Shown here piece by piece: positions 3,578 through 4,764 of a stretch of DNA of 50,945 nucleotides. The translations under genes were made by a program, and so were the position numbers. The notes under the pieces are model-generated. The model worked only from the letters and a program-made list of their open reading frames with translations. It ran no database searches and was not told the origin of the DNA. Positions within the stretch are counted from its first letter, which is position 1; every line of letters starts with the position of its first letter. The stretch lies in the NCBI GenBank assembly GCA_018816555.1, contig JAHIVT010000092.1, positions 1 through 50,945 on the forward strand, given 5' to 3'. Source of the stretch: Pseudomonadota bacterium. Its GTDB lineage: Bacteria; Desulfobacterota; Desulfobulbia; Desulfobulbales; SURF-16.

Positions 3578-3835
3578 ACTGTACTCCTTTAAGTGCTCAG
3601 CAAAAACTTCAACGGCATCAAACAGGGCCAAGAGGCAGCGCAGGGCGAGAATATTGACGAGAAAAGAAGATGCTAAAACTTAAATTAAGATTAATAACTT
3701 TCTTAAATACTCGACCCCCCCATTCTTGTCAATTAAAATAAAAAGAAATCACTTACGAAACTCCCGGCTGACAGCTTATTCGAGAAATGTGAAAAAAAAT
3801 ATTTTCCCATGGAACCTTTTTGGGAAAGTGAGCGT

Positions 3836-3960
3836 TGTATGTATTGTAAAATGTAAGAGTTAACATCCTCAGTTACCTTACTTTTTCACTTTTCATTTTT
3901 CTCAGTGTTTCCAGCAATGGAAACAGAAAGCCGGTGACCCTCATCACCGGCTTTTTTTTT
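3836..3960 (+). ncRNA. Putative small RNA, unit 1
   Basis: Most diverged copy. If TGGAACC at 3810 is the upstream part of a sigma-54-like promoter, transcription would begin near 3836 and end at the terminator near 3960, giving about 125 nt. It contains an extra internal hairpin that other copies lack (TGTTTCC 3906-3912 pairing with GGAAACA 3919-3925). The CU-rich segment is weaker than in units 2 and 3. The start is inferred, the end well supported. Confidence 0.55.
3930..3960 (+). terminator. Intrinsic terminator of sRNA unit 1
   Basis: Stem GCCGGTGA (3930-3937) with TCACCGGC (3944-3951), a 6-base loop, then a run of nine T. Confidence 0.88.
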
Positions 3961-4004
3961 GCCTGATAGATTTTTTTCTGGAACCTATTCTGAAAAAACG
4001 GATC

Positions 4005-4116
4005 TCATCAATTAAGACTGTAAGAATTGACACTCCTTACCTGTTTTTTTCTTCTCATTTTCTCTTCTTTTTTTGTTGTAGTGAAACCGGTGACCTCCCA
4101 TCACCGGTTTTTTTTT
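4005..4116 (+). ncRNA. Putative small RNA, unit 2
   Basis: Copy with a predicted transcript of about 112 nt. It contains ATTAAGACTGTAAGAATTGA followed by ACTCCTTACC, which is complementary to the Shine-Dalgarno core AAGGAGT, then a long C/U tract. Promoter position is inferred from the conserved TGGAACC at 3979; the usual GC at -12 is not clean in this copy. The 3' end is set by a strong terminator. Confidence 0.6.
4085..4116 (+). terminator. Intrinsic terminator of sRNA unit 2
   Basis: Stem AACCGGTGA (4085-4093) with TCACCGGTT (4101-4109), then a T run to 4116. Confidence 0.88.
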
Positions 4117-4159
4117 GCCCGACAGATTTTTTTCTGGAACCTTTCCGCAACGGATGAAT

Positions 4160-4270
4160 CTAATCAATTAAGACTTTAAGAATTGATACTCCTTATTGTT
4201 TTTTTCTTCTCATTTTCTCCTCTCTCTTGTGTTGTAAAAAAACCGGTGACGCCCCATCACCGGTTTTTTT
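4160..4270 (+). ncRNA. Putative small RNA, unit 3
   Basis: Predicted transcript of about 110 nt, closely similar to unit 2. It carries ATTAAGACTTTAAGAATTGA, then TACTCCTTATTG, which is perfectly complementary to AAGGAGTA in the leader of the nearby RRM gene. The promoter-like element TGGAACC-TTTCC-GC (4135-4148) has GG and GC separated by 9 bases, one short of the sigma-54 norm. The terminator defines the 3' end. Confidence 0.6.
4241..4270 (+). terminator. Intrinsic terminator of sRNA unit 3
   Basis: Stem AACCGGTGA (4241-4249) with TCACCGGTT (4257-4265), same stem as unit 2 with a changed loop, followed by T residues to 4270. Confidence 0.88.
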
Positions 4271-4286
4271 ATGCCCGATTTTTTTT

Positions 4287-4301
4287 TGGAACCTTTCTCG
4301 C
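4287..4301 (+). promoter_or_regulatory. Sigma-54-like -24/-12 element upstream of sRNA unit 4
   Basis: TGGAACCTTTCTCGC has the GG and GC dinucleotides separated by exactly 10 bases, as in sigma-54 promoters, and matches the consensus at TGG, AC and GC. The same TGGAACC begins all four units, but the -12 part is less clean in the others, so a sigma-54 origin is only suggestive. Confidence 0.4.
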
Positions 4302-4312
4302 AACGGATGAAT

Positions 4313-4434
4313 CTAATTCATTAAGACTGTAAGAATTAAAAAACCTTATCAGTTCGTTTTTTCTCACTTTTCTTCATTTTTTTCTCCTTAGTACATGAAA
4401 AAGGCCGGTGTCCCCTCACAACATCGGCCTTTTT
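4313..4434 (+). ncRNA. Putative small RNA, unit 4
   Basis: Predicted transcript of about 122 nt. It keeps CATTAAGACTGTAAGAATT but has AAAAACCTTATCAG where units 2 and 3 have ACTCCTTA. A CTCCTTA lies instead just before the terminator (4384-4390). The CU-rich segment is retained. The terminator stem differs in sequence from the other copies. Confidence 0.55.
4398..4434 (+). terminator. Intrinsic terminator of sRNA unit 4
   Basis: AAAAAGGCCGGTGT pairs with ACATCGGCCTTTTT (one G-T pair) around a 9-base loop; the T side supplies the U tract. Confidence 0.85.
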
Positions 4435-4503
4435 CATCTCCCCAACCCTCCATTACTCCGCAAACCCGTCAGCGCCCTGCGCTATACTGTTATTTTGCTG
4501 TCA

Positions 4504-4526
4504 AATCAGACAAAATTAGGTATAGT
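4504..4526 (+). promoter_or_regulatory. Weak sigma-70-like promoter candidate ahead of adk remnant and trmFO
   Basis: TATAGT at 4521-4526 is a fair -10 element about 60 bases before the adk remnant start; only a poor -35 is visible about 16-17 bases upstream. It lies after the last sRNA terminator, so some promoter is expected here. Confidence 0.3.
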
Positions 4527-4587: not shown

Positions 4588-4764
4588 ATGAAACTCATTC
4601 TTCTTGCCCCTCCGGGTGCCGGAAATGATACTGCGACGAAAATGCTGTCCAAGATCAACGACTCCGTGCTGATCTCAACCGGAAATATTCTTCGTGGCGC
4701 GGTTCAGACCGGCACCTCCGGAGATCTGGCGGCCCACGGTACCAAAAAAGAGATAGGTATTTAA
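4588..4764 (+). pseudogene. Adenylate kinase N-terminal remnant (58 codons), coupled to trmFO
   Basis: The 58-aa frame starts [20 protein letters not shown], clearly the N-terminus of adenylate kinase: the beta-1 strand, a P-loop-like GAGNDT and the AMP-site segment [12 protein letters not shown]. The P-loop of active enzymes is GAGKGT; here the essential Lys is Asn13 and the next Gly is Asp. The rest of the enzyme (about 160 aa) is missing; after [21 protein letters not shown] the frame diverges and stops. The stop codon overlaps the trmFO start (TAATG), so translation of this remnant may feed trmFO. There is no strong ribosome site before it. It cannot be an active kinase; it is either decay debris kept as a leader peptide or a repurposed small protein. 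Confidence 0.75.

Follow-up and report, generated by a model that had tools for sequence, protein, structure and literature searches.

A tandem array of short non-coding units

The DNA analyzed here, hereafter the window, comprises the 50,945 nucleotides of contig JAHIVT010000092.1 from a Pseudomonadota bacterium (assembly GCA_018816555.1; order Desulfobulbales), and the element under study is an array at positions 3811-4437 in which four mutually diverged non-coding units of about 150-170 bp each follow one another head to tail. The array sits between a divergent gene for a small RRM-type RNA-binding protein (PF00076; 3314-3580, reverse strand) and a 58-aa adenylate kinase (adk) remnant followed by trmFO. 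Four terminated units are present, three of them with promoters of the extracytoplasmic function (ECF) sigma factor type and the fourth with the -35 box, and the same promoter precedes a sigma factor gene. An earlier note on this DNA had described four tandem diverged repeats of this length with TGGAACC upstream, each with a C/U-rich tract and its own intrinsic terminator; the layout was confirmed by a repeat search and by homologous arrays in the genus, and both tract and terminator stem with its T-run were present in all four copies. The conserved block also described there was recovered in copies 2-4 (ATTAAGACTGTAAGAATT), whereas copy 1 contains only a diverged version and forms a separate subtype (A), with an additional hairpin ahead of its terminator. 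In the repeat search the copies at 3971, 4127 and 4280 spanned 70 nt with 80-81% identity to the middle one, and the copy at 3801 was grouped in shorter repeat families only.

All features of the array lie on the forward strand. TGGAACC stands 5' of each copy, and GGAACC is preceded by a T-rich run. The promoter of copy 1 (3811-3839) combines GGAACC as the -35 box with a weak -10 (GTTGTA), while the other three read GGAACCT-N16-TCTCA (copy 2, 3980-4007), GGAACCT-N16-TCTAA (copy 3, 4136-4163) and GGAACCT-N17-TCTAA (copy 4, 4288-4316). With starts placed from the promoter position, the predicted RNAs measure 104-119 nt: about 119 nt for copy 1 (3842-3960), 106 nt for copy 2 (4011-4116), 104 nt for copy 3 (4167-4270) and 115 nt for copy 4 (4320-4434). 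Copies 3 and 4 are delimited by predicted fold and by a match to covariance model R1, which was built from 26 copies of ten genomes with the promoter included; copy 2 scored 125 bits with this model, of which it is itself a member.

The predicted folds of the four RNAs consist of a 5' hairpin, a long unpaired C/U tract and a terminator with a C-rich loop, and their folding energies lay below those of dinucleotide shuffles (z -6.23, -2.78, -3.65 and -3.64 for copies 1-4). The 5' hairpins occupy 3845-3888, 4014-4047, 4170-4202 and 4325-4354, that of copy 2 having the stem GUAAG/CUUAC with CACUC in the loop, and those of copies 2-4 are also seen in the alignment. The tracts, of about 28-42 nt, contain a CAU...CUC motif in copies 1-3 (3876-3903, 4044-4074 and 4199-4228), and the tract of copy 4 (4356-4390) contains the complement of AAGGAG-AAAAAA-AUG-AAG-AAA. 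A terminator scanner found three of the four terminators (at 3925, 4083 and 4233) among six in the region, little more than in shuffles (mean 3.9, sd 2.0), and the fourth was found by the repeat search as inverted repeat I3. Taken together with the folds, the terminators are delimited at 3926-3960, 4083-4116 (loop CCUCCC), 4236-4271 (which the repeat search also found) and 4395-4437.

Conservation of the RNA family and its predicted fold

Homologous arrays of 3, 3, 2, 5 and 3 copies occur in five other genomes of the genus (G001-G005; the genome of the window, with four, is G000), and for this reason the array is considered more than a chance arrangement. A DNA search of 97 genomes, including the window's own, gave matches in 12, these five among them, and the nearest named record is Desulfurivibrio sp. 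SURF_16, whose TrmFO is 87% identical and which carries five array copies. When model R1 was run against 242 genomes of the order, 35 matched at E <=0.01, 21 within the family and 14 outside it, and 27 of them reached E 0.001 or better; since the E-values apply per genome, two or three of the 35 may be chance. A sample of 395 genomes from the phylum gave four matches at E 0.001 or better, including one outside the family in whose fetched piece the GGAAC/TC promoter was not seen. A second model of the RNA only (R2), made from genus copies without the promoter, matched 21 of the 22 family genomes (one doubtfully) and all 15 of good quality, the sole genome missed (G019) being 70% complete. As the copies are related to each other, their counts are not independent events.

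The earlier note had suggested an undescribed family of multi-copy small RNAs (sRNAs), to be checked by an Rfam search and a covariance-model scan, and both outcomes support it, with conservation across a bacterial family and no Rfam match. The Rfam scan of the array returned nothing at gathering score, and its 34 weak matches were all far under the cut-offs, including the Thr leader (26 bits, cut-off 55), ylbH, the sigma-E-dependent VrrA (24 bits, cut-off 50), RsaE and MicC (22 bits). Additionally, a phage collection contained no match to the array. No earlier description of the family was found in the literature by title and abstract, where thin coverage of subscription journals means that this is not proof of absence.

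The predicted fold is shared by most of the 26 homologues. An alignment of 20 rows (19 distinct) had 98% of its terminator cells paired, with five covarying pairs, and 74-87% of its 5' hairpin cells paired, with three; the covariation score exceeded 500 of 500 shuffles and every slid control, on a structure that came from one member. Some results nevertheless speak against this fold as a whole: the RNAalifold consensus of 20 genus copies retained the terminator and missed the 5' hairpin, further pair types showed no excess (430 of 500 shuffles as high), and pairs changed on both sides did not stand out either (14 of 500 shuffles as high). Within the tract, the motif CAU[CU]3-9CUC occurs in 31 of 44 copies, where 3.1 are expected from shuffled tracts; the 44 comprise the 26 copies and 18 of 20 new matches, all but G012, which lacks a promoter, and G017, whose position was not yet available. 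The motif was missing from eight of the nine new copies outside the family, a point against the reading favored below.

Variation within the family takes several forms. In subtype A, 41 nt of the copy 1 RNA (3863-3903) are letter-identical in G000, G001, G002 and G004, despite a strongly different promoter spacer in G002, and this identity suggests a more specific target for the subtype. Three genomes from another family of the order (G059, G044 and G034; loci L205, L208 and L214) encode RNAs that share the element GGGYCCTCCACCC and have no CAU...CUC, possibly representing a sister subtype. In G005 and G018 a palindromic repeat-like insert, CGTCATTCC..., separates copies (L128, 2791-3047; L130, between its two copies), indicating that arrays have been split.

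The ECF-type promoter and its probable sigma factor

By sequence, GGAACC resembles the -35 box found in promoters of ECF (sigma-E-type) factors. Across the 26 copies of ten genomes, TC follows GGAAC at ECF spacing in 23, and because GGAACC or GGAACA had served to mark off the copies, only the TC and its spacing are free tests. The remaining three are the first copies of the window, G001 and G004, which have no recognizable ECF -10, whereas the first copies in G002, G005, G010, G011 and G018 read TCTTA or TCTAA. The element was present at ECF spacing in all of 18 further copies, which had been found with the promoter-including model. With the promoter-free model R2, GGAAC and TC were found upstream of 16 of 18 matches outside the genus (those of 24 that had a locus), compared with 133 of 7436 control windows; the promoter had been used in placing G014 and G015, and leaving these two out gives a stricter count of 14 of 16. 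The G012 match has no promoter and G017 reads TGAACC, and these exceptions, together with the delimiting of the copies by their -35 box and the three first copies, tell against the reading favored below.

The genome of the window has a gene for an RpoE-like ECF sigma factor, and after it comes the gene of a zf-HC2 anti-sigma protein, in which a single hydrophobic segment spans residues 97-115. The sigma gene exceeds the sigma70-ECF cut-off (TIGR02937, 96 versus 43 bits), and its best NCBIfam match is RpoE (TIGR02939), at 136 bits under a cut-off of 236. Upstream of the sigma gene itself stands atatatGGAACCTTTTCACACAAGGATTTGTCTTGCC, and GGAAC and TC at the same spacing were found upstream of 16 of 17 ECF orthologues, the window's counted (eight by script and eight by eye, with G026 left out at a contig end). 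We infer that this RpoE-like sigma recognizes the GGAAC/TC element. A strict pattern, GGAACCTTT-N13-15-TCT, occurred at 21 places in five genomes, namely nine array copies, four ECF genes and eight others, and its reversed control at 16 places. One of the eight others recurs in two genomes within open frames of about 330 codons, and is thus probably coding sequence. These counts suggest that the ECF gene and the array are the chief recurring outputs of the promoter at this strict stringency.

Other sigma-like genes were also seen. At L162 (396-1738) a second pair of ECF sigma and zf-HC2-like anti-sigma genes has no GGAAC-N-TC in the 395 bases upstream, and two similar 177-aa sigma-like proteins with similar neighbors (L163 and L164, on G000 contigs C153 and C162) are possibly a duplicated or mobile module.

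Candidate targets and explanations of the array

The reading that we favor, and hold to be probable, is that the array encodes four separately transcribed, trans-acting sRNAs under ECF control that repress mRNAs of envelope proteins independently of Hfq. We are confident in the promoter, the family and the architecture, and moderately so in the function. In the proposed mechanism, the RpoE-like sigma would be held by its membrane-anchored anti-sigma factor until envelope stress frees it to transcribe its own operon and the array; the C/U tract would then pair through CAU...CUC, whose complement is a Shine-Dalgarno sequence, a spacer and AUG, with translation-start regions of envelope-protein mRNAs, and would block translation without Hfq. 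Promoters in series may provide both dose and variety of targets.

The best target candidate would be the mRNA of a FadL-type outer-membrane protein (PF03349; 36157-37425, forward strand), encoded 32 kb from the array. Targets were ranked among 371 genes from 20 sampled stretches and the window, predicted by a simple script (longest frames and Shine-Dalgarno score), some of them certainly false. The FadL start region ranked first of 371 by mean shuffle-z over the four copies (z -5.0, -1.8, -3.6 and -1.5 for copies 1-4). When nine genomes were examined with their own RNAs against the orthologous start, 21 of 22 copies beat the dinucleotide-shuffle mean, 13 of them at p <0.05 and with a mean z of -2.2; the 22 exclude the three copies of G002, which has no FadL match, and one of G018, and the weight of this test is lessened by the choice of FadL for its high rank in the genome of the window and by the mutual dependence of orthologous start regions. 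By plain energy, the best copy placed FadL 3rd of 371 in G000, 1st in G001, 5th in G004, 1st in G005, 3rd in G011, 8th in G018, 2nd in G013 and 15th in G010, with the 370 other start regions of the window genome as background for every genome. Moreover, RybB lowers fadL mRNA in Salmonella (PMC1804206), which makes the FadL prediction plausible, though it is no test of it.

Other target results weigh against the favored reading. Copy 5 of G004 paired with FadL worse than the shuffle mean, the G003 orthologue ranked 109 and 85 of 371 (its paralogue 24 and 4), and no FadL match was found in G002 at E 1e-30. Exported genes, defined by a hydropathy rule and numbering 60 of the 371, were not shifted in pairing as a class (p 0.12), and for copies 1-3, shuffling the tract did not weaken its pairing with start regions (z +0.3, +1.6 and +1.2). 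Only the copy 4 tract favored start regions above the interiors of genes (z -2.9) and favored exported genes (z -3.5, Mann-Whitney p 0.051), so that a general rule by which all four tracts prefer either was rejected. The tract of copy 4 did slightly better than shuffled tracts against start regions (z -1.0). Among the best-ranked targets, exported genes account for 7 in the first 10, 9 in the first 20 and 12 in the first 40. In six genomes, the complement of the copy 4 tract occurred with up to three mismatches at 72 places, five of which are the arrays themselves, compared with six places for the reversed pattern. Of 30 fetched loci, 27 were translated (L242, L244 and L246 were left out, and L240 is an array itself), and 19 of these begin proteins that by eye appear exported or membrane-anchored, an appearance due in part to the Met-Lys-Lys codons within the searched pattern.

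A broader proposal, which we advance only tentatively, is that the array is the main output of the ECF sigma and the tract a generic antisense to the starts of exported proteins, that is, to Shine-Dalgarno sequence, AUG and the lysine codons AAG and AAA; if so, one stress signal would lower translation across a large part of the secretome simultaneously, without Hfq.

The four sRNAs resemble known systems in wiring and in anatomy. RybB and MicA are sigma-E sRNAs that act together with Hfq to shut down the synthesis of outer-membrane proteins, and the promoter motifs of rybB and micA read GGAACTTTT and GTCAAA (PMC1804206). The array shares with them a GGAAC-type promoter of an ECF envelope-stress sigma, a short RNA and the predicted repression of a FadL-kind outer-membrane mRNA. 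It differs in that theirs are single genes in separate intergenic regions, in that the predicted pairing region here is the C/U tract, and in the matter of Hfq: a search for its gene (PF17209) was negative in all 28 genomes and positive in 5 of 14 controls, including Escherichia coli and Bacillus subtilis. An RNA chaperone, if one is needed, must be a protein other than Hfq. The Rfam library includes RybB, MicA, LhrC and Qrr models, and the RybB and MicA families were neither at gathering score nor among the 34 weak matches. LhrC1-5 of Listeria are induced by envelope stress, controlled by LisRK and able to dispense with Hfq (PMC4132741). Like them, the array has several copies, CU-rich sites in stem-loop, single strand and terminator loop (here by sequence and predicted fold, and least alike at the 5' loop of copy 4) and a predicted blocking of the Shine-Dalgarno sequence; unlike them, it has no Rfam match, its host is not Gram-positive and its promoters are of ECF type, LisRK itself not having been searched for. 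The four tandem homologous CcsR1-4 or cuckoo RNAs of Rhodobacter have CCUCC-type loops and are under stress sigma factors, and they are processed out of one transcript together with a protein gene, whereas the array has a promoter element per copy. Overall, the wiring is that of the sigma-E sRNAs RybB and MicA and the anatomy that of LhrC, and the array is a member of neither sequence family.

These findings suggest that sulfur-cycling bacteria with no detected Hfq possess an RNA brake of their own on the output of outer-membrane proteins. If true, envelope stress and sRNAs became, or stayed, coupled without Hfq in the order around Desulfurivibrio, with LhrC-like anatomy. The sigma factor, promoter, RNA family and target are now testable, and the covariance model can be used for annotating these genomes.

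Among the alternatives, it is conceivable but rather improbable that ECF-driven sRNAs mainly titrate a protein in a Csr-like manner, either the RRM neighbor or another C/U-binding protein, instead of pairing with mRNA. All four copies do have a long unpaired C/U tract, a high copy number would supply dose, and the RRM gene adjoins the array in five of six genus loci. However, it was found in none of 23 fetched loci outside the genus (tblastn, most with about 1.5 kb of flank), for which reason the RRM protein is also a lead only as a replacement chaperone. Base order in the tract, CAU...CUC, is conserved to a degree that composition does not explain, and pairing with FadL is above dinucleotide shuffles. 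As a target, the RRM gene itself was rejected (z near 0, rank 205 of 371).

It is less likely still that the copies serve the adk/trmFO unit downstream as a repeated leader or attenuator, or that they are functionless degenerate repeats. In favor of a leader, adk or trmFO is present in 19 of 29 fetched loci (six of six in the genus and 13 of 23 elsewhere, three of them in other families: G078, G054 and G092), a number that may rise as the fetched pieces are mostly about 3 kb, and there are the weak Thr-leader scores. Against it, four terminators and a sigma-70-like promoter (4498-4526, forward strand, by consensus match) intervene, so that the array need not be the leader of the adk-remnant/trmFO unit. 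Sigma-70-like matches numbered six in the region compared with 2.9 in shuffles, and a similar element was seen by eye in G001, G002 and G005. Some copies lie 2-4 kb from adk (copy 1 of G011 and the first copy of L056), and the 41-nt identity in copy 1 speaks against both a leader and degenerate repeats. By its neighbors, the genomic place of the array is old.

Control by sigma-54, as in the Qrr RNAs, was also raised by the earlier note, which compared the layout with Vibrio and saw a sigma-54-like element in copies 3 and 4. Qrr1-5 of Vibrio have sigma-54 promoters, use Hfq and lie at scattered loci, and a multi-copy sRNA layout is what the array has in common with them. The element turned out to be weak, since GG-N10-GC fits copy 4, copy 3 has N9 and 3 of 26 copies overall have the spacing, whereas the conserved motif is of ECF type and agrees with the one in front of an ECF gene; a sigma-54 promoter was accordingly rejected and Qrr-like regulation is strongly disfavored. 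The Qrr model of Rfam was not matched, in line with the note's own remark that the sequences are unrelated. Least probable of all is a type I toxin-antitoxin or small-peptide array, as the four copies share no reading frame, as had also been noted, and the only frames above 15 codons are two hydrophobic ones of 29-30 codons in copies 2 and 3, which start with TTG rather than ATG and overrun the copies with no stop before the terminator end, while copies 1 and 4 have none, so that small peptides were rejected.

The adenylate kinase remnant beside the array (4588-4764) has an altered P-loop (APPGAGNDT). By tblastn, adk is not left at this place in G001-G004, the rest of these genomes not having been searched, and an intact adk stands here in G005 and in other genera.
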